From Streptomyces akebiae (GTDB lineage Bacteria; Actinomycetota; Actinomycetes; Streptomycetales; Streptomycetaceae): 64,000 nt of DNA. The notes below the pieces were generated by a model, which did not search any database, had not been told where the DNA came from, and saw only the letters and a program-made list of their open reading frames with translations. The stretch is taken from positions 1,550,001-1,614,000 of the forward strand of contig NZ_CP080647.1 of assembly GCF_019599145.1 (NCBI RefSeq), read 5' to 3'. The number at the start of each line of letters is the position of its first letter. Position 1 is the stretch's first letter. Position numbers and translations under genes: made by a program. Below, piece after piece: positions 38,716 to 59,018 of this stretch.

Positions 38716-40479
38716 TCAAAGTCCCCCCGTCACCAAGCCCTGCGGCTCGCCGTTGATCGTCACGGCCGGGTCGGCCTCCACTACGCGCACGGACATGTCG
38801 ATCGGTGCGGGGCGGGCGTTGGCCGTTTCGGCTGCCGAGAGGTGCCGGACGGTGGAGGAGCCGTCGGCGAACGGGCGGACGGTATGGGCCAGGAGGCGGG
38901 TCAGCTCATCGTCGAGACCGTGCTGCAGTGGGGTGCCGTCGGGTCCGAAGGAGTCGATCTCCCGCTCGGCAAGCACCACGCCGGTCTCCGCGTGGGTGGC
39001 GGTGAAGCGCAGGATGCCGCTCTCGTTGTAGCGGAACTTGATCTCGATCTTGTTCCGCCGGCTGTCCTGTTCGCGCGTGGGGAGATCCACCTCGATGTTG
39101 GCCAGGGGGAAGGCACGGTCGCTGTCAGCCGAGTAGCCGACCTCCCCTTCGATCACCGTCACGCGCACGGACGAAGCGCCCGGCATGTTCGGGTAGAAGG
39201 TGGACGAACCCTCCGCGGGGAGCGTGGCATTGCGTCGGATGATGGCGCGAAAGCCCTTCTGTTCGCCCGCGCTGACGGCCGTGCCCAGGTCGTAGCTGGT
39301 CACGAGGGAGAAGTCTCTGTCGTCGCCGAGTTCGCCATCCAGGGAGGCCGCGTAGATAGCGGCGCCTCGGGCGACGGCGGTCATGGGCCGGCACAGGCCG
39401 CTGTCGACGATGCGGTCGTGCCCGAGGAGCTCGCCCAGCGCGTGACGCACCTGGGGGATCTGCGAGGTGCCGCCGATCATCAGCACGGAGTCGATGTCGT
39501 CCGCGGTGATGGCGAGGTCTTCCAGAGCCTGCTGGACCGGCTCCAGGGCTCGGGTGATGAGCGCGCTGATCGCCTCGGTGTACTCGGCCGCGGTGATCCT
39601 CACCTCACGCCTCGAGATCGAGGGGGCGAGGCCGACCGGGAGGTCGAAGAAGAGCGCGCCGTCCATCGGCACGGAGGACAAGGCGATCTTCGTCAGTTCG
39701 ACCGAACGGCGCCACCGGCGTTTTTCGGCCTTGGTGAGCTGGTCCGCGGTCAGGCCGATCTTCTGCTGGATCAGCTTGGCCAGCGCGTTGTCGAACTCCA
39801 GGCCGCCCAGGGCGGTGATGCCGCGGGAGGTCTGCTCCTCGAAGAGGCCGTCGTCGTACTCCAGGACGGTGACGTCGATGGTACCGCCGCCCCAGTCGAA
39901 GACGAGGAAACGGCCCGGGATCGGGACGTCGCGGACGTATGAGATCGCAGCCGCTGTGGGCTCGTTGAGGAGGGCCCGGACCTTCACTCCGCCGAGCGCT
40001 GCCGCCGCGCGGGTGCGGTAGCGGGCGCCACCTGTGGCGTTGGCGGGGACGGTGACGACCGCGTCGGAGAGGTCGAGCAGTTGGGCGGAGACGCCTTCCT
40101 TCATACGGCTGAAGAGGGAGGCGGCTGCGACCGTGCTGTGGAATGTCTCCGATCCGACCCAGACGTGGTGCTCCTCGAGCTGGGCCGCGGCCTCGGAGCC
40201 GTCGGTGTCGCCGCTGTCCCTCTCGGCACCGGAGCGGGTGCCGAGCATCCGCTTCACGGCGTCGAGCGGCTGGCTGGTGCCGGTCTTCGCCTCCCAGCCG
40301 AAGCAGAGGGTGCGCTGGAGGTCGCGGACGGACAGCACGGAGGGGAAGAGCTGCTCGAATTCCGGTTGACGCCATTGGGATGGCACGTTGTCACTGTCGA
40401 TCGGCAGCACCTCGGTGGTGTGCCCGTTCCAGCGAGCAACAACCGAGTTACTCGTACCGAAGTCGATGCCAAAACTCAT
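38716..40479 (-). CDS. Hsp70-family chaperone (DnaK-like), last gene of the helicase operon
   Basis: The 587-residue protein has the Hsp70 ATPase motifs: phosphate-1 GIDFGTSNSVVA (residues 4-15), RALLNEPTAAAISYV, phosphate-2 VFDWGGGTIDVTVLEYDDG, and adenosine motif VLMIGGTSQIPQV. A substrate-binding beta domain follows (SYDLGTAVSAGEQKGFRAII, NATLPAEGSSTFYPN), then a helical end that is shorter than the full DnaK lid. Its ATG overlaps the stop of the GrpE-like gene. It is clearly divergent from housekeeping DnaK and is probably dedicated to the products of this operon. Confidence 0.92.
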   Translation of the reverse strand: MSFGIDFGTSNSVVARWNGHTTEVLPIDSDNVPSQWRQPEFEQLFPSVLSVRDLQRTLCFGWEAKTGTSQPLDAVKRMLGTRSGAERDSGDTDGSEAAAQLEEHHVWVGSETFHSTVAAASLFSRMKEGVSAQLLDLSDAVVTVPANATGGARYRTRAAAALGGVKVRALLNEPTAAAISYVRDVPIPGRFLVFDWGGGTIDVTVLEYDDGLFEEQTSRGITALGGLEFDNALAKLIQQKIGLTADQLTKAEKRRWRRSVELTKIALSSVPMDGALFFDLPVGLAPSISRREVRITAAEYTEAISALITRALEPVQQALEDLAITADDIDSVLMIGGTSQIPQVRHALGELLGHDRIVDSGLCRPMTAVARGAAIYAASLDGELGDDRDFSLVTSYDLGTAVSAGEQKGFRAIIRRNATLPAEGSSTFYPNMPGASSVRVTVIEGEVGYSADSDRAFPLANIEVDLPTREQDSRRNKIEIKFRYNESGILRFTATHAETGVVLAEREIDSFGPDGTPLQHGLDDELTRLLAHTVRPFADGSSTVRHLSAAETANARPAPIDMSVRVVEADPAVTINGEPQGLVTGGL

Positions 40480-41462
40480 CGTGTGCCTCTCTGGTTCATC
40501 TGCTTGCTGGCCGCAGCGCGCAACGACTGCCGATAACTCGTCTTCTTCTGCGCACGACCGCCTGTCGTCATGTCCTGCGAACCAGTTGGAGACCAGGAAC
40601 CGCCACGCGATCCCTCCTCGGGAACGTGCCGATCGCCACTTTCTTGAGGCTCCTGCCGAACACCAGATGTCTGACCCCGATGAATCTTCTTCCTGTGCGG
40701 AGAATCATCAGGCCCCCCATTGAGATCCTTCTTCTGCTTGCCACCCGCCTCCGTGTGCGTGGCTCTGCGCCTCTGCCCCGGCTTCATCTTTTCCGCTGCG
40801 GGTACCGGCGATGAGTTCTTGGGAACGGCTTTGAGCCACCCACGCTCGACAAGCTTTCCGGATTCCTTGTCGACGTAAGCCGGCGCCGCAACTTCATATG
40901 CAACCGGTCCAGAGCTCATTGCCCCAGGTGGATCTTCCACCACATTGAACATTGAATGATCATCGGCCTTCCCGATAATCTCCAAGCCGGCCCGCGACAA
41001 CTCGTGATCGATCCGCGCCAATACGATCCTCAGGCTCTTGGACTCCAGAGTCTGACGGTGGATCGCAGCCAACTGAGCCAAGTGCATTTGGCGGGTCCTC
41101 ATTCCCTCCATCACACCGCTCCGCACAGAATCGGAAATTTGAGGAAGGACACGCCTCATCAACTCAGCCCGGATGACACCGACAGGATCACCCTCTGCCC
41201 CATTGCTTCCAAGAAGGGTGCCCAAGGTCTCAGCCATGCGCTCCAGTTCCTCTTCCACTGCGGGCAGGAGTGAGTCGTTGATGGACTTGAGGATCGTTGG
41301 CGCATCCAGAGCTCCCGCTGCAAGCTTAGGGATGTCGCTGGCGGTGAACTTCCAGGGTTGCATGTCAGCCGCTTTGGGTTCGTCATTTCCGGAATACGGT
41401 TCCTGACCTGCAAAAGATGCGCGCTTTTTCCGGGCTTCGCGCGCCCTGCGACCTTTAGTCAC
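40476..41462 (-). CDS. GrpE-like protein (putative Hsp70 nucleotide-exchange partner)
   Basis: The GTG start overlaps the upstream stop (GTGA). The 328-residue protein has an N-terminal basic tip, long helices (about 45-155, with EEELERMAETLGTLLG and ISDSVRSGVMEGMRTRQMHL), then a segment at about 155-214 that follows the GrpE beta-domain pattern (GLEIIGKADDHSMFNVVED, GPVAYEVAAPAYVDKESGKL, GWLKAVPK). The last 110 residues are charged and disordered. Lying next to an Hsp70, a GrpE role fits well but rests on topology, not strong identity. Base composition is clearly less GC-rich than in neighbouring genes. Confidence 0.6.
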   Translation of the reverse strand: MTKGRRAREARKKRASFAGQEPYSGNDEPKAADMQPWKFTASDIPKLAAGALDAPTILKSINDSLLPAVEEELERMAETLGTLLGSNGAEGDPVGVIRAELMRRVLPQISDSVRSGVMEGMRTRQMHLAQLAAIHRQTLESKSLRIVLARIDHELSRAGLEIIGKADDHSMFNVVEDPPGAMSSGPVAYEVAAPAYVDKESGKLVERGWLKAVPKNSSPVPAAEKMKPGQRRRATHTEAGGKQKKDLNGGPDDSPHRKKIHRGQTSGVRQEPQESGDRHVPEEGSRGGSWSPTGSQDMTTGGRAQKKTSYRQSLRAAASKQMNQRGTR

Positions 41463-43204
41463 GATGTACCGCTCTCCGGATCTTCAAGGGCTGCGATCTC
41501 TTCAGCAGCCAAGGAAAGGCGTTCCGTCGCCCTGGTGATTATTTCTCGGGCCGCCTCGGTGCGAGACCACGCGCGGTCGCTGTCCGTGGGCGGCTCGGTG
41601 AGCCTCTGCAAGGGCTCGGGCGGAAGTTCCAGCCGCGGGCTCGTGCCGAGGGGGTCCTTCCAGCGGTGCGGGGCGAGCGGGACGGTGAACGAGGGTACTT
41701 CCTGCTCCTCCCGCTCGGCCTTCTCGATCACGTCCTTGGCCCAGTTGATTCGGACACGGCCGCTGTCGTCGAGCTCCTTCCGCAGCGCTCGCCATGCCTT
41801 CTTCCAGTCGTCCGCCCCGTCCGGCACGCCGAGCACCAGATGCGGGTTGAGCGGCTGCCCGCGTTCACCGAGGGGCCGGTCTTTCAGGAAGCTCCGATTC
41901 TTCCGCAGCGCGGCCACGGCACCTCCGCCGAGCTGGTCCGGCACGGGGGGACGGCCTTCCGCGTCCTGCTCCAGGAGTTTGAGGGACTCGGTCACCTCCT
42001 GGTCGGCACGCAAGTAGGCCTGAACGTTCTGGGCCTCCCAGCGCACCGGCTGTGAGTGGTGCCGGAGCCTCGCGGCCATGGTGAGTGCCGCCTTCCTACG
42101 CTGTTCCGCCGTCTCTTCGTCCCCGCGGAGGAGGGCACGGTGCATCTGCCGCACGGCCCTCACCAGGGTCCGCACGCCGATCCAGCCGTTGAATCTCTTG
42201 TTGCTCGTACTGTGCACGCTGGGGTGTATCCGCTCCAGGAGAACCCACAGTCGCTCGTCGGCGACGAGGTCGTCCGGCACCTCTCGGGTGCGCCGCACCT
42301 CGCGCAGGGCGTCGAGAAGCTTCTGCGTCGGCGGCAGGAGGTCGGTCCACTCCTCGGTGATCGCTTTGACGTCGTTGGCCCGCAGCCTGACCAGCAGGCG
42401 CCAGTCCTGCGGCCAGTCAGGGCCGGGTTCCGTTCCCGAGCCCGCCTCCCGGCGCTCCCGTTCGAGGGGCCAGGCCAACAGGTCCATCTCCTCGTCGGTG
42501 AGGGACGCCGGGTCCAGGCGGGCGCGGAAGTAGGCGGCACGGGAGGTGCCGTCACGCTCGGGGACCGCGCCGATCCACTCCTCGTCGATGTAGTCGTCGA
42601 GGAGCGGCCGGGGAAGCTTCACCAGGAGTGCCCTCTGCCGGGGAGCCGACAGGTTGGTCTCCGTCAGGCGCCGGTCGTCCTGGTAGATCTGCCACATACT
42701 GCCCGGCTCGCCCAGGAGCGGCAGCGGCTTGTCGTCCAACAGGGCGCGGGCGCGGTCGTCGAGCCGTCCGTCGAAGACGTCCAGCCCATGGTCTTGTGCC
42801 ATCGCGAGCAGGGAGACGCCCGAGACCGGATCTTCCTGCCGGGACGCTGCGTCGGCCGCGGCCCGCGCCAGCTTCCGCGCGGAAAGCGTCCTGGGCTCCG
42901 TCTTCAGTGCGTCGGGCAGCACCAGTTGAGCGAAGGAGCGGGCGCGCTCCCAGGCATGTCGGTCGGTGAATCCTTCGGGGACCGGCGGGGGCATGGCCGG
43001 TTCCGGTTCCGGCTGCTTCTGCGGCGGAACGACCGGAGCCGGGCCGCCCGCGCCTTCCGCGCTCTGCGGGACTCTCCCGGCGGTCCGGTCCTGGGCCCGG
43101 CGGGCCTGCAGAAGGGCGAGGCGGCGGGCTATCTCGCGCTGCCGCAGCTCCTCCCGGTGGGCCTGCTCGTCGTGGCCCGCTCCCAGCGGGATTCCTGACG
43201 TCAT
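41459..43204 (-). CDS. Unknown protein with a degenerate J-like domain (no HPD)
   Basis: The 581-residue protein starts at ATG 43204, overlapping the helicase stop by one base (TGATG). The N-terminus has a helical Arg/Gln-rich segment and a Pro-rich linker; the middle is helical and unfamiliar. At about 451-501 the sequence NPHLVLGVPDGADDWKKAWR and ALRKELDDSGRVRINWAKDV follows the J-domain pattern (NP..vLGV..gA....kkAyr.L), but the HPD that triggers Hsp70 ATPase reads DDS. With Hsp70 and a GrpE-like protein downstream it looks like the client adaptor of a private chaperone machine. Confidence 0.6.
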   Translation of the reverse strand: MTSGIPLGAGHDEQAHREELRQREIARRLALLQARRAQDRTAGRVPQSAEGAGGPAPVVPPQKQPEPEPAMPPPVPEGFTDRHAWERARSFAQLVLPDALKTEPRTLSARKLARAAADAASRQEDPVSGVSLLAMAQDHGLDVFDGRLDDRARALLDDKPLPLLGEPGSMWQIYQDDRRLTETNLSAPRQRALLVKLPRPLLDDYIDEEWIGAVPERDGTSRAAYFRARLDPASLTDEEMDLLAWPLERERREAGSGTEPGPDWPQDWRLLVRLRANDVKAITEEWTDLLPPTQKLLDALREVRRTREVPDDLVADERLWVLLERIHPSVHSTSNKRFNGWIGVRTLVRAVRQMHRALLRGDEETAEQRRKAALTMAARLRHHSQPVRWEAQNVQAYLRADQEVTESLKLLEQDAEGRPPVPDQLGGGAVAALRKNRSFLKDRPLGERGQPLNPHLVLGVPDGADDWKKAWRALRKELDDSGRVRINWAKDVIEKAEREEQEVPSFTVPLAPHRWKDPLGTSPRLELPPEPLQRLTEPPTDSDRAWSRTEAAREIITRATERLSLAAEEIAALEDPESGTS

Positions 43205-46200
43205 CAGATCTCCTCCGCGAAGATGTGCACCTGCTCGATCACCGCGGCAGGGGTCCGGTCCAGACTGTAGGAGTCGGCGAAGGCGATTTTGGTGGCGAGG
43301 CCTCCATCACGGACCTCGTAGCGCAGGGCCCGCAGCCGTTCGTTCCCGCATTCATCGGCGGCGGACTCCAGAGGATGCTTGACGGCGACCGCGACGGGCT
43401 CGCCTGTGAAGTCCGACGTGAAGAGCGCCACCGGTCCGACAGCGGTCTCCTTCAGACTGACGTTGGGCTCCTCGTCCGCCCAGCCCTTCAGCAGGACGGC
43501 GTGTTCGTTCGGATCGATCTGCAGTTTCCGACCGCGCAGGGCGTCGGTGAGATCGCGGGCGAGCCGCCAGTCGTACAGCGGGTGGAGGCGCATGTTGGCG
43601 TAGTCGCGCAGGCAGGCGTAGCAGGAGCTGCGGCAGTTCAGCGCATGGCGGTCGGCCTCCAGGTCGTGCACGTAGCGGTCGACAGCCTGGAGGAACTCCT
43701 CGATGTGGTCCTGCGAACCGAGGTAGGTGCTGAAGCCCGCTCCGTTGTCGAGGCTGTCCGCCAGGTAGGCCATGACCGGAGCTGCCACCGGGGCGTCCGA
43801 GCCGTGGATGCCGCTGAGGAGTTCCTCCGGCTGCACGTCCAGGTGCGGGGCGGCGGCACGGCGGAGCAGGGCCGCGAGCGAGTACCAGGCGGCGCGCCGC
43901 CCGTGGTAGGCCTCGGGGAAGCCGTCGATCTGCTGGGACTTCGAGATGTCGAAGCGGAGGCCCCGGATCGTGTCGAGGGCGCCCTTGGCTCCGATGAAGA
44001 GCATGTCGGTGTGCTGGGTGGCGCCGAGGGCGATCTCCAGGTCGGCCTCCGCCTTGGGGCTGTCCAGCGCCAGGTATCCGCGCCACGGGCCGGTGTTCTT
44101 GACGAACCTGAAGAGCTTTCCGGCGTTGGTGTTGACGATGTAGCGGTCGCCGCTGCCGGTGTGGACGACCATCCAGTCGTCGGCGGCACGGTGGATGCGC
44201 GGGGCGGTCTTCTCCAGGTCGGTGGCGGTACGCGCGCTGGTGGCGTTGGAGCCGAGCTCCCGGTAGCCGTCGTAGTCTCGTGCTTCGTGGGCAGCCCGGA
44301 AGCCTGCGGGCTCCCGGAAGGGGACGGCCCTGTAGTACTTGCTCTCCGCGCCACAGGCGGGGCAGGTGCCGGCGCTCCCGGTTTCCGGGTCGACGACGGC
44401 CTGCGGGTCCACGTGGGAGCAGATCCGGCACATGGCGACCAACTGTTCCGGTCCGAAGGGGTCTTCGGCGGCCTGGAGTCCGCGGCCGCTCGGCACGAGG
44501 GAGACCACTCCCCTGGAACGGAGCAGGCGGCCGTCCTGCGGGGTTTCGCTGCCCGGTGCGAACTTGCTGAGGGCGACGGCCAGGTCGCGATTGACGGAGT
44601 CGGCCGGCGGCCAGGGGAAGGTCTTCTGCGGGATGCTCCGGTAGAGGAGGCGGGAGCGGGTCGGGAAGCCGAACATCGGCAGAAGGCCCGCCTCCGCCAG
44701 ACGCTGGCTGAGGTCGGGGTGGCCGACCGTCCGAGTCGCCACCTCGTCGACCTGAGCGAGGAGTTCGCCGATGACGGATACCGGGTCGAGGGCGGCGACG
44801 TTCTCCGGTGTTCCGTTCCGGAGTGCGGCGGCAGCGGCCCTGATGCGCTCCGAATGTTCGGCGATCCAGCGGCGGACGGCGCCACGGTGCGTCGGCCAGT
44901 CGGCGGCGAGGCCGAACTGTCCGTGAACGTTGGTCGTCATGTCCGGCCCCTTCCGGCGGTCCTCCGGCTGCAGGGGCTCGAAAGCCTGGCGCAGGACCTC
45001 TCCCAGCAGGACCCGGCGGAAGACGGAAACCATGCCGAGGACCAGGTAGGGCGGCGGAGTCGGATCGTTGGTGATCGCTTCCGGTCGAGCGAAGTAGTGC
45101 TCGTCGTGGCTGCGGCCACGGCAGACGGTGAGAGCTACGGCGACCGGGCTGTTGCGTCGGCCCGCACGCCCCACGCGCTGCTGGTAGTTGAAGCGCGTGG
45201 GCGGCATGTTCGCCATGATCACGGTGTTGAGGGGGCCGATGTCGACCCCGGCCTCCATGGTCGTGGTCACGGAGAGCAGTTCCAGGCCGTCCGCCTGCGG
45301 AACGTCGTTGTCGCCGAGGAAGACGTCCTGGAAGAGGCTCTGCCGACGCTGGGCCTCCAACCGGTCCGTCTGGCCGGTCAGTTCCGCGGTTCGCAGGGGG
45401 AAGTCACCGGTGCGGTGGGCGGCCTTCCAGGCGTAGTAGTCGTCTTCGAGGACTCCGTCGTACTGCTGAGGCACGGCGGGCAGCGGAGTCTGGCACTTGG
45501 TGCACAGCCCCGCGCCCGGGTGAAGGTGCGGCCGGTGGCAGGAACGGCACGTCCATGTCTTGTTCTCGCCGGGGCGGAGTGCCACCTTCTCCGGCTTGAT
45601 GACGTAGTCGACCACGGCGTCCTTCCACACGCCGCGTACCCGGTCCTCGATGGTCTGCAGATCGGTGCCCTGACGTTCGGCCACCTGCGTCCAGAAACGC
45701 TTCAGGGGCGCGGGCGGCCTTTGCAGCGAGGCCCGTATCCGGGTGAAGCGCCGCATCAGGCCGAGAATCCGCAGGCTGGCACGCGCCACGGCCTGGTCGC
45801 TGTCCGGGCCGATCTCCAAGGGTGAGCGGTCGTCGCGCAGGCAGAGCCAGCCGAGTCCGAGCGATTCGAAGTCACGGCCGCCGCCGGAGAAGAGGCTGCC
45901 GATGGTCTCGAGGCGGAGGCGGGAACGGATGCGGCTGAGGAGATCCTCCTGCGCCTGGGTCTCCGTCACCGCTGCCCGATCCCGTTCCCAGTTGTAGAGC
46001 GCGGTCCAGGGCTGTCCAGCCGAGGTCTGCTGGAGCGAGGCCGCGGGACCGGCGGGATTGGTGCCGTACTTCAGCAGCATGCCTTCGAGGTCGGAGGCGA
46101 GGTCGTCCAGGGAGGGCAGTTCGGAGAACTTCCGCTCCAGGTCCGGCAGGAGTTCCGGTTCCGCGTCGAGGTCGTCGGTGAGGATCGCCTTCAGGCGTCC

Positions 46201-48669
46201 CCAGTCCGCCGGGTCGCGGTCCCGCATCCGTGCCACGGCTGCGCGGGCAGCCGCACGATCGACCGGCTCACCGGCGTAGTGGCCCTTCACCGTCTGAAGG
46301 TCTCCGAAGGGATCCCCCTGGCTCTCGACGGCCTGGGCGCTGAGCAGGCGGAGAAGGTCCTGGTGGTGGCGGAGGGCAAGACCGCTGGCGAGTTCGGAGG
46401 CGTCGTCACGGCTGTCGGAGAAGGCGATCGCCTTGCGCCGGCCATCGGGAAGGTGGCCGAGCGCTTCGGTCACCAACACCTGGTTGATCTTGTAGAAGCC
46501 GGTGCGCATCCGTCGGACCGGCGCGTTGCGCAGCCGGTCAGGCGATTCCAGCGGGACGAAACGGCCGTCCCTGTCGTACTTGATCTCCCAGTCGTCGCCG
46601 CAGGCGGGGCAGCGGGTGGGGAAGGCCTGCAGCCGGGCCGGGTCGTAGGCCGGCTTCCTGCCCTCCTTGTCCAGGGGCACGGAGATGTGGAACGACCATC
46701 CCGTGTGCTGGACGTCCCGGTTCTCCAGGCGGCCGGTGGCGGGCTGGTAGGCGCTGCGACGGAACGCGAACTCGACCTGTGGGCCGCCGTCGGACAGGCC
46801 CGCGTGCCAACTGGGGTCATCGAGGCCGAGGCCCTTGGTGCGCGGCCAGTACACGATGTAGTTCGCCGCGGTGGGTGCGCCGCTGGCCTCGTCGGGGAGC
46901 AGGTCCAGGTCCGGGAAGTCGGTGTGGAGTGCACCGGTGAACTTGCGCCGCTGGGTGTCCTTGGGGCTGGCGTACCCGCCGAGCATGAGGTCGCCGCAGG
47001 CCTGGCAGGAGAGAAGCTCCAGCACGCGGGCGCCGCAGGTGCAGCGGGAGGTGGGCTCGGCGAAGAGCCGGCCGACCCGGCGTTCGGGACCGTGCTCCAC
47101 GGGGATGTGGGGGCAGTTCGGGTCCGAGCAGGCCCAGATGCCCTCGATGTTCCGGAAGAAGAAGTGGGCCCGGAGCTGAGGAAGTTCGGCGTCCTGCGCG
47201 CAGCCGAGTATGCGCAGCACGCCGTGCAGAGCGTCCAGACGCTGTTCCTTCGGGACGCCCGGGAAGAGACTTGCCGCCAGTTCGGGGGCGGGCAGAGCAC
47301 GAGACCTGCCGCCCGGAGTGAGTGCGCGCTGGAGCGCCGGACCGAGGCCGGTCTCCCGTGCCACGGTGACGGCTTCGTCCTGGGTGACGGGAGCCTTCGC
47401 GGCCTGCGTGAGGCGTTCGGTGTGGGCGGCGAGGTCACCCTCGCCGTGGGTCTCCCTCGCCTTTCCGGGGATGATCACGCGGCGGGAGCCGGGCAGGGCG
47501 AAGAACCCGTCGAGGAAGTCGTCGTCCCGGCCCGCCTCCAGGGAGGCGGAGGCTGCGAGCACTCTCAGCTTCTCGGGGTTCTTGTCGAGGCCGAGACGGT
47601 GGCGGAGGTTGCGCAGCAGGTACGCCACCTCGGTGCCGGCCGTACCGCGGTACATGTGGAGCTCGTCGAGGATCAGGGTGAGGCGGGCGCCGGGGGTCTG
47701 CTCCAGCCACTTCCTCGTGGCACTGAAGATGTGCTCCTCCTGCTTGCGGAGCAGCATGATGTTCAGCATCGAGTAGTTGGTGATCATGATGTCCGGTGGC
47801 GCGGCCTGCATGTCCCAGCGGGCGTGCATCTCCGCTCCGCCGAGGCGCGGGATGAAGGGTCGCAGCTCCTCGTCGAGCGTCTCGTCGGCCTTGTGCTGCC
47901 GTTCCTGGACCTCTCGCAGGTACTGCCGGAGACGGAAGGTCGCCGGCTCGGAATCGCGGCTGCCGGAGACAGGGGTGGCTCCGGTGTAGCGGCCGAAGTA
48001 GAAGCGGTGTCCGTTGCGCTTCCGGTCCAGCCAGGCGTGGGCCTCACGGCTGTCCAGCGATTTCCGCAGCCGGACCAACTGGTCGTCGGCGAGGGCGTTG
48101 GTGGGATAGAGAATCAGCACGCGCATGGCCGCGGGATGCCCGTGCTCGTTCTGTCGGCTGGGCACGTGGTCGCCGTCCCCCTGCCACCATTCCCGCTGCA
48201 CCGCACGGGTGCCCTGCCAGTGGGCGGACTCGGCGACCAGGTCGGCGAGGACGGGCAGCAGGAAGGACTCCGTCTTGCCGGAACCGGTGCCCGCGGTGAC
48301 CACGAAGTCCTTGCCCTCGCAGGCGGCGACCAAGGCGTCGTGCTGATGCTGGTAGAGGCTGGTCACGCCGTCGGGGAGGGTGAAGCGGGCGAAATCGGCC
48401 GCGTCGGGGTGTGCCCCTGCTTCCGCGAAGGACTCCGCGATGCTGACGCCCCGGGAGGCGTACTGCGGTCGCAGCTCGATCAGCGGGTCGCGCCACGCCC
48501 CGTTGTCCCGGTCCAGCAGGTTGCGCCGTTCCTCCATGACGGAAGGATCGTCGACGCTGAAGGGGGTGTCGTAATAGCGGAACAGCGCGCTGCGCAGGTC
48601 GTCGAAGGTGCCCATGACGTCCTGGACATCCGTGTTCGTCACCGCCGTTGTCCGCTGTTCCGCGCTCAC
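43204..48669 (-). CDS. Giant DEAD/DEAH-type helicase with C-terminal DUF1998/MZB cysteine block (DruE/MrfA-like)
   Basis: GTG 48669 overlaps the upstream stop (GTGA); 1821 residues. The superfamily-2 motifs are LYQHQHDAL (105-113), AGTGSGKTE (126-134), LYPTNALADD, DELH (335-338), ASASLEAG, TTTMEAGVDIG and QQRVGRAGRR (near 1160). Four Cys clusters (CSDPNCPH/CTCGARVLELLSCQACG, CPACGDDWEIKY, CRSCHRPHLHPGAGLCTKC, CRICSH...CPACGAESKYY) look like zinc ribbons. The end carries CRSSCYACLRDYANMRLHPL (near 1680), the DUF1998/MZB signature shared by MrfA repair helicases, DrmB and DruE. Size and layout are closest to DruE of Druantia, but none of the Druantia partners I know is recognisable. Confidence 0.88.
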   Translation of the reverse strand: MSAEQRTTAVTNTDVQDVMGTFDDLRSALFRYYDTPFSVDDPSVMEERRNLLDRDNGAWRDPLIELRPQYASRGVSIAESFAEAGAHPDAADFARFTLPDGVTSLYQHQHDALVAACEGKDFVVTAGTGSGKTESFLLPVLADLVAESAHWQGTRAVQREWWQGDGDHVPSRQNEHGHPAAMRVLILYPTNALADDQLVRLRKSLDSREAHAWLDRKRNGHRFYFGRYTGATPVSGSRDSEPATFRLRQYLREVQERQHKADETLDEELRPFIPRLGGAEMHARWDMQAAPPDIMITNYSMLNIMLLRKQEEHIFSATRKWLEQTPGARLTLILDELHMYRGTAGTEVAYLLRNLRHRLGLDKNPEKLRVLAASASLEAGRDDDFLDGFFALPGSRRVIIPGKARETHGEGDLAAHTERLTQAAKAPVTQDEAVTVARETGLGPALQRALTPGGRSRALPAPELAASLFPGVPKEQRLDALHGVLRILGCAQDAELPQLRAHFFFRNIEGIWACSDPNCPHIPVEHGPERRVGRLFAEPTSRCTCGARVLELLSCQACGDLMLGGYASPKDTQRRKFTGALHTDFPDLDLLPDEASGAPTAANYIVYWPRTKGLGLDDPSWHAGLSDGGPQVEFAFRRSAYQPATGRLENRDVQHTGWSFHISVPLDKEGRKPAYDPARLQAFPTRCPACGDDWEIKYDRDGRFVPLESPDRLRNAPVRRMRTGFYKINQVLVTEALGHLPDGRRKAIAFSDSRDDASELASGLALRHHQDLLRLLSAQAVESQGDPFGDLQTVKGHYAGEPVDRAAARAAVARMRDRDPADWGRLKAILTDDLDAEPELLPDLERKFSELPSLDDLASDLEGMLLKYGTNPAGPAASLQQTSAGQPWTALYNWERDRAAVTETQAQEDLLSRIRSRLRLETIGSLFSGGGRDFESLGLGWLCLRDDRSPLEIGPDSDQAVARASLRILGLMRRFTRIRASLQRPPAPLKRFWTQVAERQGTDLQTIEDRVRGVWKDAVVDYVIKPEKVALRPGENKTWTCRSCHRPHLHPGAGLCTKCQTPLPAVPQQYDGVLEDDYYAWKAAHRTGDFPLRTAELTGQTDRLEAQRRQSLFQDVFLGDNDVPQADGLELLSVTTTMEAGVDIGPLNTVIMANMPPTRFNYQQRVGRAGRRNSPVAVALTVCRGRSHDEHYFARPEAITNDPTPPPYLVLGMVSVFRRVLLGEVLRQAFEPLQPEDRRKGPDMTTNVHGQFGLAADWPTHRGAVRRWIAEHSERIRAAAAALRNGTPENVAALDPVSVIGELLAQVDEVATRTVGHPDLSQRLAEAGLLPMFGFPTRSRLLYRSIPQKTFPWPPADSVNRDLAVALSKFAPGSETPQDGRLLRSRGVVSLVPSGRGLQAAEDPFGPEQLVAMCRICSHVDPQAVVDPETGSAGTCPACGAESKYYRAVPFREPAGFRAAHEARDYDGYRELGSNATSARTATDLEKTAPRIHRAADDWMVVHTGSGDRYIVNTNAGKLFRFVKNTGPWRGYLALDSPKAEADLEIALGATQHTDMLFIGAKGALDTIRGLRFDISKSQQIDGFPEAYHGRRAAWYSLAALLRRAAAPHLDVQPEELLSGIHGSDAPVAAPVMAYLADSLDNGAGFSTYLGSQDHIEEFLQAVDRYVHDLEADRHALNCRSSCYACLRDYANMRLHPLYDWRLARDLTDALRGRKLQIDPNEHAVLLKGWADEEPNVSLKETAVGPVALFTSDFTGEPVAVAVKHPLESAADECGNERLRALRYEVRDGGLATKIAFADSYSLDRTPAAVIEQVHIFAEEI

Positions 48670-49658
48670 TCGGTCCTCCCGACGGTGGCCGCCACCTGTC
48701 GCGGCATGGTCTCCAGGTTCTGCTGCAGCGAGGCCGCGATCGCCTCGGCGAGCGCCCTCGGCACGTTGTCGTACGCGCGGGTCTGCGCCTGCTTGCCCGT
48801 CGAGGGCGGGAAGCCGCTGCACAGGACGACCGCGCGCTCATGCAGGGCGGGCAGTGGCGCGTACCGGTCGACGAAGAGTCGGCCCAGGCCGGCGCGTCCC
48901 TTGCCGGATTCCGGCCGCCAGCGCATCGCGCCGGTGCGGTGGCGGGCGAGCTCCAGGTAGATGCCCGTCTCGCGTTCCACCGCGTGGAAGACGCCGTTGC
49001 GACGGACGCGGGTCAGGCGGGCGTAGTCGGCTCCGCGCCACCGGTACAGGCCGTCCTCGTCGTCCCGTGCCACGGGGACGAACCGTTGGCGGCGCAACTC
49101 GTACTTCTCCAGCGTGTCGGCGGTGCTCCCACCGGGCGGTGCGGACTCGGGGCCCGGTGCCGCCTGCGGGAGCAGTTCCATCAACTGCAGGGCGGCGCAG
49201 GGGACGTAGCGGGCCCCGAAGAACTCCGCCGCTTCCCACAGGATCCGCGGGTCCTCGTACTGGAACAGGAGGGTGTCGGGCAGCGGAGCCTCACCTGCCC
49301 CCGGCCGGTGAGGGACGGCGATCAGTTCCATCCACTCCTGCGCCGCCTCCTCGACGCGCATACTGATCCGCGCGGTGCGCGCGCCGGTCAGCACGGCGAG
49401 CCCGTCGGCGTGGGGCAGTCTGGTCAGCACCGGCGGGGCGACCGACCAGCGGTCGACGCGCAGGTCCACGTCGATGAAGCCGAGGGCTGCGACCTTGCGC
49501 ATCCAGTCCCAGTCGGCGTACTCCGCCAGCTCCAGGCCCCATGCCTGGGCCTGGTTGCGGACACCGTCGCGCAGTGCGGACGCCTTGCCGCTGCGGCTCT
49601 CGCTCAGCCAGCGCAGGAGGATCCCGCCGAACTCGGTGCTGCTCATCGGTCCCGTCAT
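48666..49658 (-). CDS. Unknown protein, second gene of the helicase operon
   Basis: ATG 49658 overlaps the upstream stop (ATGA) and the end overlaps the helicase GTG. The 330-residue protein has a winged-helix-like piece near residues 40-80 (DWDWMRKVAALGFIDVDLRV, RWSVAPPVLTRLP) and a mixed middle (YEDPRILWEAAEFFGARYVP). The C-terminus ends in a long helix (RALAEAIAASLQQNLETMPR). I recognise no enzyme motif. Position and coupling suggest a helicase-associated DNA- or protein-binding subunit. Confidence 0.8.
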   Translation of the reverse strand: MTGPMSSTEFGGILLRWLSESRSGKASALRDGVRNQAQAWGLELAEYADWDWMRKVAALGFIDVDLRVDRWSVAPPVLTRLPHADGLAVLTGARTARISMRVEEAAQEWMELIAVPHRPGAGEAPLPDTLLFQYEDPRILWEAAEFFGARYVPCAALQLMELLPQAAPGPESAPPGGSTADTLEKYELRRQRFVPVARDDEDGLYRWRGADYARLTRVRRNGVFHAVERETGIYLELARHRTGAMRWRPESGKGRAGLGRLFVDRYAPLPALHERAVVLCSGFPPSTGKQAQTRAYDNVPRALAEAIAASLQQNLETMPRQVAATVGRTE

Positions 49659-51715
49659 CGGTCCAGCTCCTTCGCTGCCTGCACGTACGCGGCCCACGAG
49701 AGGTCGACGGACGCCTGCTGGGCGTTGAGGACGGCGCGGGTCCAGGCCCGCGGGTTGCCGGCGGTCTTCGGCTTCGGTGTTCCGGGGTTCACCGGGCGGC
49801 CTTTCCAGCGTCCGCTCCGGCGCTCCAGGAGCCAGCCGCCGATGCCGTGGAAGTCGGCCTCGAAGCGGAGCGGGGCGGGGGTGTCGGCAAGACGTTCTGC
49901 CCACCAGTCCGGTTGTTCCGGGGCCTCCAACGTCCACAGTCGACCGTCGGCCGCCGCGAACAGGACCTCGTCCGCGTCACGACGGCACAGCTCCATCGCT
50001 GCTGTCGCGTCATGGGTGGTGGCGCCCGTGCAGTCGGCACCGGTGATGCCGGTCGACAGGGTCTGCTCGACGAGAAGAGAGGGCGACTCCGAGGCCTTGC
50101 CGTCCACGACGGTGAAGCCACAGACCTTGGTCATCCTCGGTTCGACGACGGCCTGGTCCGCAGTGGCGAAGCCGACTTCGGCGCCTGCGTAGCTCACCGT
50201 GTGGCGGCCCGGCTCCAGCCGGAGCACGGCCAGGGGGACGGGGCGGCCCGCGGCGATCCTCTTCCTGAGCTCGGGCCGCTCCTCTCCGTCGATCAGGAGG
50301 GTGCCCGTGCCTTCCACAGCGTCCGGGAGGACCACCTGCGGCTCGCCTCCCCGCAGATACAGGTGGGGATCGAGCGAGGGCGCGAGCTTCAGACCGCCCT
50401 CGAGGCGGAGCTTGAACTGGGCCGGGGGCTGCAGGAGGCCGACCGCGCCCTGGACCTCCCGGAGCGCCCGACGCAGGGTGACCGCGTCGTCGAAGGTGAC
50501 GGGCTTGTGCAGGGACCAGCCCTGCGGCACCCAGGCCAGCTTGCTGGTGTCGGCGCTCCGGCCGGTGGTCGCGGCCTTGTCCAACAGCCGCTGCACGTCC
50601 CGCTGCGCACTCGGGGCGGCGAGCACCACGTGCGCCTCTCCCGGGCGGAAGCCGTCGGTGCCGGCCCAGACACCGAGCACGTCGTCCCGCGCGAGCACCA
50701 GGACGGAGGAGGAGGGGCGGCTGAGCACCAAGTTGTCCCCGTCGCGGCGGATACCCCGGGTGAGGGTGTCCGCGCTCGGGGCGGGCAGGCCCGTCACCTC
50801 ATAGTAGGCGGTGTCGCCGAGCTGATCGAGGACGACGCCGTCCTTGAGCTCGATGCGCTTCTTCTGCTCCGCGGAGCGCAGGCGCGCTACCCACCTGAGA
50901 CGGCCCGCGTCCAGCCGCACCAGCAGTTCGACCCGGGTGACACCGGTGGGCACCAGCGCGTCCGAACCGTCCCAGGAAGCGGCGTAGTTGCCGATCAGCT
51001 CGGCGAGGAAGGGGCGGAACTCGTCCTCCTGCAGAGCGTTGCGGAAGCCCTTGGAGAAGTGCTGCTCCATGCCCCGGATCTCGATCTGGGCCAGCAGCGT
51101 CTCCCCCGGCAGCGGCCAGGTCGTGCCGTGTTCCCGCAACGACCGGAAGAGCTTCGACAGGAAGGACCGGTCGGCGCCGCTGAGGAGCGACTGGGACTGG
51201 GCGAACCCGATCATGCTTCGGTTGGAGGGCAGGTCGGCCGGGGCGGGAAGGGTGCAGAGTCCCCGCGCGCCCTTCTGGCTGTGCTGCCAGGAGGCCAGCA
51301 CCTGCCACATGCGGGAGATAGGCTCGTACTGCTGGCTGCCCAGTCGCTTCTCGTCGCCGGTCAACAACTCGGAGAAGCGGGCGTGGTAGGCGGTGGCCCG
51401 GTGGTTCCGGTCGTTCACCATCCGGGATGCGGCGATCACCGAGCAGGCCAGCAGCGGCAGGAAGGCGGGCACGCCGTCCTTGTCCTGCTGCCACATGCGC
51501 CAGCGGTAGTCCTCCAGCGCACGGTACGGTTCCTCGGTCCCCAACCGCAGGAACCTGCCCACGCACTGGGCAAGGGGCTCTTCCATGCCGTGTCCGTGCC
51601 TGAGCTCCTGCTCCACTTCGTCGTCGATGTAGAACAGCGTCGGGTGGCCGACGTGCTGTCGTCCGAAGAACTCCTCGGCCAGCACTTCCTGCCACGCCTG
51701 ATAAGAATGGTCCAC
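49655..51715 (-). CDS. Unknown large protein, first gene of the helicase operon
   Basis: I chose GTG 51715 (VDHSYQAWQEVLAEEFFG) because GGGGA sits just before it; the frame stays open upstream to about 51838 but that part is poor in coding character. The 686-residue protein has a helical N-terminal third (DDEVEQELRHGHGMEEPLAQ), a middle rich in beta strands, and a C-terminal third with WWAERLADTPAPLRFEADFH. No known domain is visible to me. It is coupled to the second gene by an ATGA overlap. Confidence 0.8.
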   Translation of the reverse strand: MDHSYQAWQEVLAEEFFGRQHVGHPTLFYIDDEVEQELRHGHGMEEPLAQCVGRFLRLGTEEPYRALEDYRWRMWQQDKDGVPAFLPLLACSVIAASRMVNDRNHRATAYHARFSELLTGDEKRLGSQQYEPISRMWQVLASWQHSQKGARGLCTLPAPADLPSNRSMIGFAQSQSLLSGADRSFLSKLFRSLREHGTTWPLPGETLLAQIEIRGMEQHFSKGFRNALQEDEFRPFLAELIGNYAASWDGSDALVPTGVTRVELLVRLDAGRLRWVARLRSAEQKKRIELKDGVVLDQLGDTAYYEVTGLPAPSADTLTRGIRRDGDNLVLSRPSSSVLVLARDDVLGVWAGTDGFRPGEAHVVLAAPSAQRDVQRLLDKAATTGRSADTSKLAWVPQGWSLHKPVTFDDAVTLRRALREVQGAVGLLQPPAQFKLRLEGGLKLAPSLDPHLYLRGGEPQVVLPDAVEGTGTLLIDGEERPELRKRIAAGRPVPLAVLRLEPGRHTVSYAGAEVGFATADQAVVEPRMTKVCGFTVVDGKASESPSLLVEQTLSTGITGADCTGATTHDATAAMELCRRDADEVLFAAADGRLWTLEAPEQPDWWAERLADTPAPLRFEADFHGIGGWLLERRSGRWKGRPVNPGTPKPKTAGNPRAWTRAVLNAQQASVDLSWAAYVQAAKELDR

Positions 51716-53355: not shown

Positions 53356-53394
53356 TGTCAAACAGATTGACAGATTTGACGGGTGCTGTAGGTT
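53356..53394 (+). promoter_or_regulatory. Promoter with overlapping inverted repeat upstream of the N6-methylase
   Basis: TTGACA (53367-53372) and TAGGTT (53389-53394) are 16 bases apart. The -35 box is the right arm of TGTCAA-ACAGA-TTGACA (53356-53372), so a regulator bound there would block the promoter. Transcription would begin near 53401, just before the ATG at 53432. The methylase's own helix-turn-helix is a candidate binder. Confidence 0.55.
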
Positions 53395-53431
53395 GTTGAC
53401 GTCCGCTTCCGAGAGGCCCAGGACCGCACCC

Positions 53432-55651
53432 ATGCCCCAGCCATCCGCGTCACCCGCCCAGGTGACCGCCGCCGAGATCTCCCGCATCGCGGGCGTCACG
53501 CGCGCCACGGTCAGCAACTGGCGCCGTCGGCACGACGACTTCCCGACGCCGTCCGGCGGCACGGACAGCAGCCCGCTGTACGACCTGGAGGCCGTGCGCG
53601 CCTGGCTCGCCTCCCGCGGGCACACCTCGGCCGCGAGCCCGTCGGAGGAACTGCGCACGACGCTGCGCCTGCACGCACAGGACGGCGGCGGCACACCGGA
53701 GGACCTGTTGCTGCTCGTCCTCGCCGCGGCAGGCCGCTCACCGGAGGAGCTGACCGCCGCCGTACGACTGCCGGACGCGGACCTCGCGACCCGCGCGCAG
53801 CGGGACGCGGCCGCAGCAGCCGACGCCGTACCGACCGCGGAGGCCGTCCGTTACGAGCCGGGCGACGCGCCGGTGCTGCGCGCGCTGTACGCGTGTGTAC
53901 GCGACGAAGGCGGCCAGGCCGCGCTGGCCGTGCTCGCGGAACGGGAACTGGAGGACAGCGCCGCCTCCGGCGCCTACCAGACCCCCGCACCACTCGCCGA
54001 CCTGCTCGCCCGCCTGATCCCCGGCTCCCCCGCCCGCGTCCTCGACCCGGCCTGCGGCAGCGGCACCCTCCTGGCAGCCGCCGCCCGCCAGGGCGCGAGC
54101 GAGCTGTACGGCCAGGACACACTTCCCGTGCAGGCCCGCCGCAGCGCCGTGAGCCTGATGCTGACCGCCCCCGACGCCACAGTCACCGTCCACGCCGCCG
54201 ACAGCCTCCGCGCCGACGCCTTCCCCGGCCTCCTCGCCGACGCCGTCCTGTGCAACCCGCCCTTCGGCGACCGCGACTGGGGCCACGACGAACTTGCCTA
54301 CGACCCCCGCTGGGCCTACGGCGTACCGCCCCGCGCCGAATCGGAACTGGCCTGGGTACAGCACGCCCTCTCCCACCTCACTCCCGGCGGCCATGCCGCC
54401 CTGCTCCTCCCGCCGGCCACCGCAGGCCGCTCGTCGGGCCGCCGTGTACGGGCAGAACTCGTCCGCAGCGGCGCCCTGCGCGCCGTGATCGCCCTGCCGC
54501 CCGGCGCGTCGGTACCCCTGCACGTCGGCCTCCAGATCTGGGTGCTGCAACGGCCCGAACCGGGCGGCCCGGAACGCAAGTCGGCCCTGTTCGTCGACAC
54601 GGCGGCGGATGCGGCGACGGCGGCCGGACACGGCGGGACGACGACGGTGAGCGCGCGGACGCGGGGCGGAAGCAGGTCCGTCGCCCCGGATTGGGAGGGA
54701 ATCACTGCGCGCGCGCTGGACGCCTGGCGAGCGTTCACGGAGAGCCCGGACACGTTCGAGGGCGAGCCCGGCGTCGCGCACGCCGTCGGCGTGGTGGACC
54801 TGCTCGACGACGTGGTCGACCTGACGCCGACGCGACTCGTACGGGCGTCACGGGCCGAGGTCGACCCGGCGGAACTGTCGGCCGAGGTCGACACCACCCG
54901 CCGGGATCTCGTCGAGGCCGCGAGGTCCCTCGGGCGGACGGCCGGTCAGGAGACCTGGAGCGCCGCAGGCGTCACGACCCGCCAGTGGCGGACGGCGACC
55001 GCGTCCGACCTCACGCGCGGCGGGGCGCTCACCCTGCTGCGGAATCTGCCGGACAGCGTGCGCACCCGCGCGCAGGCCGCGGGCGGCGGGACCGGCGGGG
55101 GCGGGAGGCCCGAGACGCGGCCGGTGCTCACCGGCTCCGACATCGCGACCGGGTCAGGTCCCACCGGGGACCCGATGGGCCTGTACGACGACACGGCACC
55201 CGTGATCGCCGTCGGCGACGTGCTCGTACGGGCGGTCGCCAGCGCGGAAGGCCCGATGGCCCGGGTGGCGGAAGAGGCGGACGCCGGCGCGCTGCTCGGC
55301 CCCCACGTCCACCTCTTCCGGCCGGACCCGGCACGCCTGGACCCCTGGTTCCTCGCGGGGTTCCTGGGCGCGGAGGAGAACATTGCGGGCGCGTCGACCG
55401 GCAGCACGGTCCTGACGGTCAGCCCGGGCCGGCTGCGGGTGCCGCTGCTGCCGCTGGAGGAACAGCGGCGATACGGGGAGGCGTTCCGGCACGTGCACGA
55501 ACTGCGGGCGGAGGCCCAGCGGGCGACACGGCTGGCAGAGCAGACGGCACGGCTGCTGGCGGGCGGGCTCACGGGCGGCCAATTGCTGCCGTCACGGGAG
55601 CCGGCGGGCGCGGCGGAGGCGGGCGGACGGGGTGGCGATTCGCCCCATTAG
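53432..55651 (+). CDS. N6-adenine DNA methyltransferase with N-terminal HTH and specificity-like C-terminus
   Basis: The 739-residue protein starts at ATG 53432. A helix-turn-helix covers residues 10-60 (TAAEISRIAGVTRATVSNWR). The gamma-type adenine methylase core has DPACGSGTLLAAA (near 205) and the catalytic NPPFGDRDW (near 274). The C-terminal 180 residues resemble an HsdS target-recognition half with the LPLLPLEEQRRYGEAF segment and a following long helix. It is thus a one-polypeptide M-S protein without its own nuclease; the type I hsd operon starts 128 bases later on the same strand. It could be an orphan methylase or part of the same defence island. Confidence 0.85.
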   Translation: MPQPSASPAQVTAAEISRIAGVTRATVSNWRRRHDDFPTPSGGTDSSPLYDLEAVRAWLASRGHTSAASPSEELRTTLRLHAQDGGGTPEDLLLLVLAAAGRSPEELTAAVRLPDADLATRAQRDAAAAADAVPTAEAVRYEPGDAPVLRALYACVRDEGGQAALAVLAERELEDSAASGAYQTPAPLADLLARLIPGSPARVLDPACGSGTLLAAAARQGASELYGQDTLPVQARRSAVSLMLTAPDATVTVHAADSLRADAFPGLLADAVLCNPPFGDRDWGHDELAYDPRWAYGVPPRAESELAWVQHALSHLTPGGHAALLLPPATAGRSSGRRVRAELVRSGALRAVIALPPGASVPLHVGLQIWVLQRPEPGGPERKSALFVDTAADAATAAGHGGTTTVSARTRGGSRSVAPDWEGITARALDAWRAFTESPDTFEGEPGVAHAVGVVDLLDDVVDLTPTRLVRASRAEVDPAELSAEVDTTRRDLVEAARSLGRTAGQETWSAAGVTTRQWRTATASDLTRGGALTLLRNLPDSVRTRAQAAGGGTGGGGRPETRPVLTGSDIATGSGPTGDPMGLYDDTAPVIAVGDVLVRAVASAEGPMARVAEEADAGALLGPHVHLFRPDPARLDPWFLAGFLGAEENIAGASTGSTVLTVSPGRLRVPLLPLEEQRRYGEAFRHVHELRAEAQRATRLAEQTARLLAGGLTGGQLLPSREPAGAAEAGGRGGDSPH

Positions 55652-57771: not shown

Positions 57772-59018
57772 AAGCCATTCCTGCTCTGGGCGGTGGTCCC
57801 TCTCATTGGACCGTGGAACGCGCCAAGTGGTTGCTGAGCCGTCGGCGCAGGGGCATACGGCCGGAAGACGGAATCGTGACGGCCTTCCGCGACGGACAGG
57901 TAACCCTTCGAGAGAACCGGCGCACTGAGGGCTTCACGAACGCCATTCAGGAAATCGGATACCAGGGGATCCGCAAGGGTGACCTCGTGGTACATGGCAT
58001 GGACGGCTTCGCCGGTGCCATCGGCGTCGCGGACTCCGACGGCAAGGCATCACCAGTGGTGCACGCCTACACGCCGAACGGGAATGTTGACGCGCGGTAC
58101 ATGGCATACACCCTGCGCACCATGGCTCTGAGCGGCTACATCACCACCCTGGCGAAGGGCATTCGGGAACGCTCGACCGCCTTCGACGCGCCCACGTTGG
58201 CCAACGTCCAGTTGCCGGTACCGCCTTTGCGGGAACAGCGCCGCATCGCTGACTTCCTCGACGCCGAGACCGCTCGCATCGACGAGGTGTCCCAGCGCTT
58301 CCGTCGGCTTTCCGATCTCGCCCAGGAACGTGTCCGAGCCATAATTGACAGCGCCTTCGCGGAATGTGGGAATGAATCCCGCGTTCCGGTATCGGCTGTC
58401 TGTCGTGCCATCGTCGACTGCGTGAATAAGACGGCTCCGGTATCAGCCGAGACCACTCCGTACAAGATGATCAGGACATCGAACATCCGAAACGGCGAGG
58501 TGGACCTGACCAACACCTTCTCCGTGGAGAAGGAGGTCTTCACCGAGTGGAACCGACGTGGCACACCTCGATCCGGTGACATTCTTTTCACCCGTGAGGC
58601 CCCATTGGGTCAGGTTGGAATGCTGCGCAGCGATGAAAAGGTCTTCCTCGGACAGCGTATTATGCTCTATCGGGCGAATGAATCGCGTATCAGGAAGGAA
58701 CTCCTTCTCTTCAACTTCCTGGGTTCTCACATGAATCGCCAGCTACGTACGCTCGGGGCCGGGTCACTTCATGAGCACATGCGTGTCGGTGACGGCCTCA
58801 AGCTTCTGGTCTTCTGTCCGCCGCTGGGTCAGCAGGATGCGCTGGTCATGCAGATTCAGGAAGGCAGGGATGCCAGCCTCCGACTCTTTGACCTGGCGCA
58901 GAAACAGCTAGCCCTGCTCAGCGAGCGCCGTCAAGCCCTCATCGTCGCCGCCGTAACCGGCCAGTTTGACGTAACCACCGCTAGCGGCCGCAACGTAACC
59001 GAAGGAGTCACCGTATGA
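57768..59018 (+). CDS. hsdS: Type I restriction-modification specificity subunit HsdS
   Basis: The 416-residue protein has the two-fold HsdS layout: first target-recognition domain ending LPVPPLREQRRIADFLDAET (near 145-165), a conserved helix, a second target-recognition domain (SNIRNGEVDLTNTF, GDILFTREAPLGQVGML) and a closing helix with LFDLAQKQLALLSERRQALI. It selects the split recognition sequence for both methylation and cleavage. The second target domain (about 58300-58900) is clearly less GC-rich than the rest of the operon, as expected for swapped recognition domains. Confidence 0.95.
   Translation: MKAIPALGGGPSHWTVERAKWLLSRRRRGIRPEDGIVTAFRDGQVTLRENRRTEGFTNAIQEIGYQGIRKGDLVVHGMDGFAGAIGVADSDGKASPVVHAYTPNGNVDARYMAYTLRTMALSGYITTLAKGIRERSTAFDAPTLANVQLPVPPLREQRRIADFLDAETARIDEVSQRFRRLSDLAQERVRAIIDSAFAECGNESRVPVSAVCRAIVDCVNKTAPVSAETTPYKMIRTSNIRNGEVDLTNTFSVEKEVFTEWNRRGTPRSGDILFTREAPLGQVGMLRSDEKVFLGQRIMLYRANESRIRKELLLFNFLGSHMNRQLRTLGAGSLHEHMRVGDGLKLLVFCPPLGQQDALVMQIQEGRDASLRLFDLAQKQLALLSERRQALIVAAVTGQFDVTTASGRNVTEGVTV

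Follow-up and report, generated by a model that had tools for sequence, protein, structure and literature searches.

Druantia type IV, a type named in 2021, was proposed by PADLOC from gene clusters and combines DruE and DruF with DruL, which replaces the type II genes DruM and DruG (PMC8565338). Homologues of the same three proteins are clustered in an operon of Streptomyces akebiae, which occupies positions 38716-51715 of a 64,000-nucleotide stretch of the genome (assembly GCF_019599145.1, contig NZ_CP080647.1, positions 1,550,001 to 1,614,000 of the forward strand; hereafter the window). In contrast to the type as published, this operon also contains genes for an Hsp70 and for two proteins designated Jl (J-like) and GrpEl (GrpE-like), together referred to below as the trio. 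The terms "hsp70", "chaperone", "dnak" and "heat shock" are absent from the main text that defines type IV, which names no chaperone gene for this type (PMC8565338), and neither "Hsp70" nor "chaperone" appears in the main text of a 2025 survey of YprA (PMC12458937). In the literature searched, i.e., titles, abstracts and passages of main texts, with most subscription papers and supplements lying outside it, neither a description of a Druantia core combined with Jl-GrpEl-Hsp70 nor a mechanism of Druantia type IV was found.

Several described systems share parts of this organization. Druantia type III has the DruE helicase core in common with the locus, together with a second, more divergent component that is the proposed sensor; it differs by having DruH and a nuclease-active DruE (PMC13192584). 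A "J-like" region of DruH was rejected as a relative of Jl, since the term refers there to the phage-baseplate J and not to the J domain of DnaJ (PMC13192584). HSP70, GrpE and DnaJ-fused proteins have been predicted in the GAP1-N2 GTPase conflict systems, which are partly actinobacterial (PMC7159879). These systems are centred on GTPases (TRAFAC GTPases, with GAP1) and FNIII-repeat proteins and are set apart here by their description; no GTPase or FNIII domain was detected in the six proteins of the operon with Pfam at E<=1. Hsp70-like proteins are also carried by CoCoNuTs (PMC11090510), and type III CoCoNuTs, likewise, have an Hsp70-like subunit, CnuD, encoded in a defence operon of the restriction type. 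However, CnuD occurs with McrBC homologues, either as a fusion or as a separate partner, and its Walker A-like motif is degenerate, whereas the residues compared in the Hsp70 described here are intact; among the six proteins, Pfam detected no domain of an McrB-like GTPase or an McrC-like partner at the same threshold. In CmdTAC, a chaperone encoded in the operon senses a phage protein and frees an effector. The likeness is one of mechanism only, as CmdC is not called an Hsp70 and the effector is an mRNA ADP-ribosyltransferase (PMC11618068). In the light of the GAP1-N2 systems and the CoCoNuTs, the statement in an earlier, sequence-only reading of this DNA that no described antiphage system carries an Hsp70 machine was too strong (PMC7159879; PMC11090510).

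All six frames of the operon are read leftward, i.e., on the reverse strand, in the order druF4, druL4, druE4, Jl, GrpEl, Hsp70. As had been noticed before, they are joined by overlaps of 1-4 bases, and all five junctions were confirmed (ATGA from 49658, GTGA from 48669, TGATG from 43206, GTGA from 41462 and ATGA from 40479). Given these overlaps, the six genes are probably co-transcribed.

The first gene, druF4 (49655..51715), encodes 686 residues if the GTG at 51715, which was taken over from the sequence-only reading, is the start codon in a frame that is open from 51838. Its product matches the DruF4 model of PADLOC with 353.8 bits (E=3.9e-106), with the DruF2 models close at 337.5 bits. 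The product of druL4 (48666..49658; 330 residues from ATG 49658), which overlaps druF4 by ATGA, matches DruL4 with 304.8 bits (E=1.7e-91). The third gene, druE4 (43204..48669; 1821 residues from GTG 48669), encodes a YprA/DruE-type helicase of superfamily 2 with the Pfam domains DEAD and Helicase_C, and the motifs GTGSGKT, DELH and QRVGRAGR can be seen by eye in its translation. The helicase scores 2178.5 bits against DruE4, as compared with 1723.6 bits for DruE2 and 590.2 bits for DruE1. The type II proteins DruM and DruG were not found among the matches listed for the six operon proteins (for DruE, the best 25 of 35). The helicase is only weakly DrmA-like (37.5 bits), and DISARM models gave no match to any of the remaining five proteins. 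The matches to DruF4, DruL4 and DruE4, combined with the PADLOC definition, make the core an already known type: as judged from these models, the first three genes are the Druantia type IV core DruF-DruL-DruE. The idea of an undescribed helicase-based defence system was, therefore, rejected for the core, to which the identity with a named system is confined, and the two proteins that had been regarded as unknown are DruF and DruL. The assignment to defence, as an operon with a DruE-type helicase at its centre, has stood. The supposed DUF1998 domain of this helicase was not recovered: Pfam DUF1998/MZB (PF09369) gave no match to the 1821-residue protein at E<=1, and a search of the bacterium's own genome with PF09369 gave three matches, all at other places and none at this operon. 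By eye, the helicase contains a cysteine motif, C-x3-C-x2-C-LRDY, which we take to resemble DUF1998/MZB.

Hsp70 (38716..40479; 587 residues) is predicted to have a complete nucleotide-binding domain and the β part of the substrate-binding domain, followed by a short C-terminal tail. Its assignment was confirmed by Pfam (PF00012, 212.5 bits, E=1.2e-62), and it is the only one of the last three proteins that exceeds a Pfam cut-off. In NCBIfam, it remains far below the cut-offs for DnaK and HscA (best 215 bits versus 620), and none of the three proteins matches a PADLOC model. The residues D6, K76, E173, D195, T200 and D202, presumably the ATPase residues of DnaK, are invariant (6/6) and align with those of two host DnaKs. 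In the same alignment, the helical lid (the α part of the substrate-binding domain) appears to be absent, with the short tail in its place. The host genome contains three DnaK-like genes besides this Hsp70, 78-100% identical to the main DnaK (L122 2471-4312; L123 3560-5452; L135; L numbers denote loci and G numbers genomes), and a second host GrpE gene adjoins a DnaK copy at ~80 kb.

The labels of the two other chaperone-like proteins are supported by remote similarity. Jl (41459..43204; 581 residues) and GrpEl (40476..41462; 328 residues) gave no library match over a cut-off, and the Pfam family GrpE (PF01025) was not matched by GrpEl. They were compared by profile-profile alignment (hhalign) with J domains and GrpE proteins encoded in the genomes of actinomycetes, L073 falling outside the GrpE comparison because of zero length. 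Jl aligned to J domains with a score of 30-33 and a probability of 51%, over 24 columns only, corresponding to helices I-II, and GrpEl aligned to GrpE with a score of ~32 (31.6) and a probability of 30%. In 150 column shuffles, the real score was never reached for either protein (largest ~20; 20.0 for GrpE), and reversed profiles scored 12 for J and 21 (21.0) for GrpE. As the scores are above those of all shuffles, they provide remote, not strong, support for both labels. The degenerate J-like segment of Jl lies approximately at residues 452-497. A simple pattern located such a segment in 26 of 28 proteins, four of which are repeat records, and the HPD motif was present in none of the 26. Against solved structures, GrpEl had no match and Jl had one at chance level (E=1.4).

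The trio is co-inherited with the Druantia IV core. DruE4 matches at E<=1e-100 were obtained in 13 of 246 genomes of the genus. All six genes are present in order in six of them (the own genome, G172, G043, G240, G181 and G179), four (G072, G145, G047 and G128) contain DruF-DruL-DruE with no tblastn match of the trio within 20 kb, and the other three have a distant DruE only. In the phylum, DruE4 is matched at 1e-150 in 6 of 396 genomes; the own genome and G571 have all six genes, and no trio was found in the stretches examined of the other four. A scan of genome contigs with Jl yielded 16 loci, all from Streptomyces and several of them strains of the genus scan. In all 16, Jl is preceded by DruE sequence and followed by GrpEl and Hsp70, with DruF and DruL present in 15. 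The gene order is retained at 30-60% identity (L025), and the operon is also found in another genus of the family, at 48-73% identity (L068). No match of Jl was obtained in plasmids or viral contigs, and none of the Hsp70 matches in 35 phage records reaches 60% identity; carriage by phages, plasmids or viruses was, therefore, rejected.

Phylogenetic analysis of 31 DruE proteins places the 20 trio loci in a single clade (Shimodaira-Hasegawa-like approximate likelihood-ratio test support 100, midpoint root), the sister of which is a trio-free Druantia IV lineage (L017-L020). Hence, one gain of the trio suffices. The tree and the distances leave out L036 and the repeat entries L022, L023, L024 and L041, with the nearly identical L025 and L044 both kept. 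Over the 20 loci, the distances of DruE and Jl correlate with a Spearman coefficient of 0.95. In this lineage, the Druantia IV core is inherited with the same gene identities and order together with a maintained Hsp70 module, and Jl-GrpEl-Hsp70 belongs to the Druantia IV system there. At the trio-free loci, other genes are found after DruE. Three of the four have, directly behind DruE and at the place of the trio, a gene for a nuclease of the PIN_8 family (PF18476, E 3.5e-54 to 2e-58; L018 13257-14681, L019 13084-14544, L020 12830-14272); the copy in L018, the sole one compared, has no PADLOC match. In the fourth, L017, an AspBHI-like restriction enzyme frame follows on the other strand.

Selection and exchange were analysed in 17 close loci of the 20. 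The mean protein identity is 86% for DruF, 85% for DruL, 92% for DruE, 83% for Jl, 93% for Hsp70 and 66% for GrpEl, the values for DruF, DruL and DruE being approximate due to 5' extensions of the frames. Purifying selection acts on all six genes, with ratios of nonsynonymous to synonymous substitution rates (dN/dS) of 0.12-0.36 and the lowest, 0.12, for Hsp70. GrpEl, which has a variable C-terminal tail, occurs in two allele classes. Class A, found in the window, L033 and L039, has a third-position GC content of 0.57-0.63, and class B, found in 14 of the 17 loci, one of 0.75-0.86. Comparison of the window with three class B loci shows DNA identities of 85-98% where Jl ends, a drop to ~38-74% from the start of GrpEl and a recovery at the start of Hsp70, both switch points lying at most 60 bases from the ends of the GrpEl gene. 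Between the classes, the synonymous divergence (dS) of GrpEl is 1.90, near saturation, versus about 0.25-0.33 in the other five genes. Among 120 of the 142 GrpEl proteins found, telling segments assigned 24 to class A and 93 to class B, and 3 are of class B with a class A tail. The pattern looks like old allelic variation that is moved by recombination as a gene-sized cassette. In this respect, GrpEl resembles a specificity subunit, and the pattern is not evidence of positive selection. The apparent unit-wise swapping of GrpEl between strains suggests, without proving so, that the machine helps to sense infection.

Related trios also exist outside Druantia IV. A search of 61 genomes of the family for Hsp70 identified, besides the Druantia type and DnaK-like matches at ~30-35%, two proteins at 42-44% identity. 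One belongs to a decayed copy of the trio (G661, L059), and the other (G650, L060), the frame of which is broken by a stop, is preceded by divergent Jl and GrpEl near a contig end. A complete trio is present in G684 (L067 7485-11977), where an NYN RNase domain (PF11977, E=1.6e-6) is fused to the C terminus of Hsp70 and no DruE match was found within 20 kb. A Jl-GrpEl-Hsp70-NYN trio was also found outside this family, in a second family belonging to the same order (G708, L156 7464-12495; PF11977, E=2.6e-8). This trio converges on a DruE1/DruE3-like helicase (~610 bits), and another frame resembling DruE and a UvrD-like helicase lie nearby. Neither Hsp70-NYN protein matches a PADLOC model, and the L067/L156 trio appears to be a separate RNase module. 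As related trios are found in the absence of Druantia or next to other helicases of the DruE kind, the module is portable and not exclusive to Druantia. In a tree of 26 Hsp70s, those of Druantia, the Hsp70-NYN of L067 and the Hsp70 of L146, which is the same gene as in L156, stand apart from the DnaKs; L060 was left out. Both this tree and that of DruE are midpoint-rooted, and their long branches were flagged as unsure by the tool. One alignment prompts the idea that the conserved tail of the Druantia Hsp70 might be a remnant of the NYN domain. With 8000 candidates scored per search, and counting proteins instead of gene neighbourhoods, 133 relatives of the window Jl and 127 of the L067 Jl were obtained, the named ones of the latter being from Streptomyces, Kitasatospora and Actinacidiphila; no protein is common to the 120 matches listed for each. 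The sequence-only reading had taken homologous loci lacking the chaperones, or chaperones found mostly without the helicase, to speak against its proposal. Loci of both kinds exist, namely L017-L020 and the divergent trio of L067, while the association inside the trio clade is unbroken, and the co-inheritance of the Hsp70 set is borne out by the single clade of 20 loci.

Further genes were noticed near such trios. In L068 (12584-14791) and L156 (12767-14884), the trio is adjoined by a gene for a UvrD-like helicase, with 48% identity between these genomes, and a third genome has a relative at a distance of ~16 kb from its trio (L181 2-1210). In L157 (1057-10748), an Hsp70 that is 29% identical to that of the window is accompanied by a small J-like frame and a TIR-like protein, as seen by eye; possibly, this is another Hsp70-based conflict locus.

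The operon is a chaperone-bearing variant of Druantia IV with a lineage-specific Jl-GrpEl-Hsp70 module. Tentatively, and with a probability somewhat short of even, this module is interpreted as an infection-responsive switch on the Druantia effector. Hsp70, with the compared ATPase residues kept and a clamp-like lid absent, would restrain the DruE/DruF/DruL assembly or one of its subunits. The restraint would run through Jl, as a J-like adaptor without the HPD that normally triggers hydrolysis. During infection, phage proteins might act as competitors for the chaperone or affect nucleotide exchange via GrpEl, which would be the variable, exchangeable subunit of the switch, and DruE would then be set free and act on intermediates of phage DNA. 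For the related trio, the NYN RNase fused to Hsp70 could be the output instead. Components of such a scheme have been described elsewhere: in CmdTAC, the chaperone CmdC senses a capsid protein (PMC11618068), sensing by bNACHT25 is mediated by host DnaJ (PMC12169576), and DruH, proposed as the sensor of Druantia III, has diverged far more than DruE (PMC13192584). The mean identities of GrpEl and DruE were likened to this divergence of DruH and DruE and counted in favour of the switch. Support for the switch role, with GrpEl as its variable input, is indirect and also includes the RNase that the related module carries. If true, an Hsp70 cycle would be built into nucleic-acid-targeting immunity and its variable part would be the exchange factor, viruses would be detected via their effect on protein handling and not via their DNA, Druantia IV would gain a testable regulatory half, and a shared module would link Druantia to RNase-type systems.

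Several observations weigh against such a switch. The antiphage activity of the operon is itself attributed to it by homology, and the profile similarity behind the J-like and GrpE-like labels is weak. Druantia IV exists without the trio in L017-L020, and the core, therefore, need not be controlled by chaperones. In L036, an intact-looking trio stands beside a DruE of which only residues 279-1872 are present, the 5' side being cut, with unrelated sequence upstream and without DruF and DruL. The distances of GrpEl and Hsp70 correlate with those of DruE at 0.76-0.77 over all pairs and at 0.38-0.41 over close pairs. The Jl profile was matched in 2 of the 396 genomes of the phylum, with three candidates scored per genome, so that divergent copies and trios without DruE may be under-counted. 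Finally, the dN/dS of GrpEl (0.22-0.36) does not point to positive selection over the gene as a whole, and alleles can be exchanged for reasons other than sensing.

The main rival to the switch is a dedicated assembly chaperone, where the trio would fold, assemble or protect the complex of the 1821-residue DruE without any sensing. The very large size of DruE fits this explanation, as do the correlation between Jl and DruE distances, which would be expected of a client-specific adaptor, and the position of Hsp70 as the most constrained gene. However, a DruE of similar size and ~48% identity does without the trio in L017-L020, the lid of Hsp70 is absent by alignment, the related trio has an RNase domain of its own and can stand without DruE, and the exchange of GrpEl alleles would be left unexplained. 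Weakened in particular by the trio-free relatives and the missing lid, the assembly role is considered somewhat unlikely, although it is the strongest of the rivals. A broader interpretation, regarded as unlikely, extends the switch beyond Druantia: Jl-GrpEl-Hsp70 would be a portable, Hsp70-based immune sensor module of actinomycetes with different outputs (Druantia IV, NYN RNase and perhaps other DruE-like helicases), and GrpEl, an exchange factor turned recognition module, would be its interchangeable specificity subunit, like HsdS in type I restriction.

Alternatively, the trio might be an independent neighbour, i.e., a self-contained defence module, formerly with an RNase domain, whose link to Druantia is no more than a common transcript. 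The Hsp70-NYN trio without Druantia in L067, and that of L060 at a contig end, would be consistent with this, as would the trio beside the cut DruE in L036 and the relatives of the L067-type Jl, which are, as proteins from equal candidate numbers, about as numerous as those of the window type. This is considered quite unlikely, as the trio loci form one clade with a fixed order in 20 loci, the frames overlap in the window, the window Hsp70 has no NYN domain according to Pfam, and all three trio genes are under purifying selection. Less probable still is an RNA-directed role, in which Hsp70 would bind nucleic acid like CnuD instead of cycling ATP. CoCoNuT Hsp70-like subunits are proposed to bind RNA (PMC11090510), and NYN and PIN_8 nucleases recur around the module and in the sister lineage; however, the degenerate Walker A-like motif of CnuD (PMC11090510) is not shared by the window Hsp70, with its compared ATPase residues intact, and the McrB- and McrC-type domains are missing from the six proteins.

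A type I restriction-modification system lies beside the operon on the forward strand, as noticed before. It comprises HsdM (55780..57771; Pfam N6_Mtase and HsdM_N), HsdS (57615..59018; Pfam Methylase_S, the true start being probably further in) and HsdR (59015..62200; Pfam SWI2_SNF2, HSDR_N and T1R_D3-like). The N6 DNA methyltransferase at 53393..55651 on the same strand (Pfam N6_Mtase; PADLOC MTase_I PDLC03037, 902 bits), formerly taken for an orphan, is the first gene of this cassette and lies outside the operon. All four parts, MTase-HsdM-HsdS-HsdR, are matched in eight genomes, including the window (53393-62200; L171, L172, L174, L175 and L177-L179). A ninth cassette genome is represented by L173, where the place of HsdS holds a frame that is unmatched by the query; its source, G072, has a trio-free Druantia IV on another contig. 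In four stretches (L171-L174), the cassette is present without the six-gene operon, the HsdS of L174 matching in separate pieces, and membership of the methylase in the Druantia operon was, therefore, rejected. The cassette divergently flanks the operon in the window, G172, G181 and G641. It is located at the start of another contig in G043, and a partial copy lies on the other side in G240, whilst the methylase stands alone in the stretch of G571 and its nearest relative is far away in G179 and G702. The cassette behaves like the operon with respect to its variable gene, HsdS showing 29-40% identity versus 76-94% for HsdM and HsdR.

On the other side of the operon, a frame of 596 residues, to which no function was assigned, adjoins Hsp70 (window 36904-38694). 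A stretch of 440 residues of its product is 78% identical to a sequence at 2.55 Mb in the same genome (L125 5755-7074), near one of the three places of the genome with an MZB helicase.

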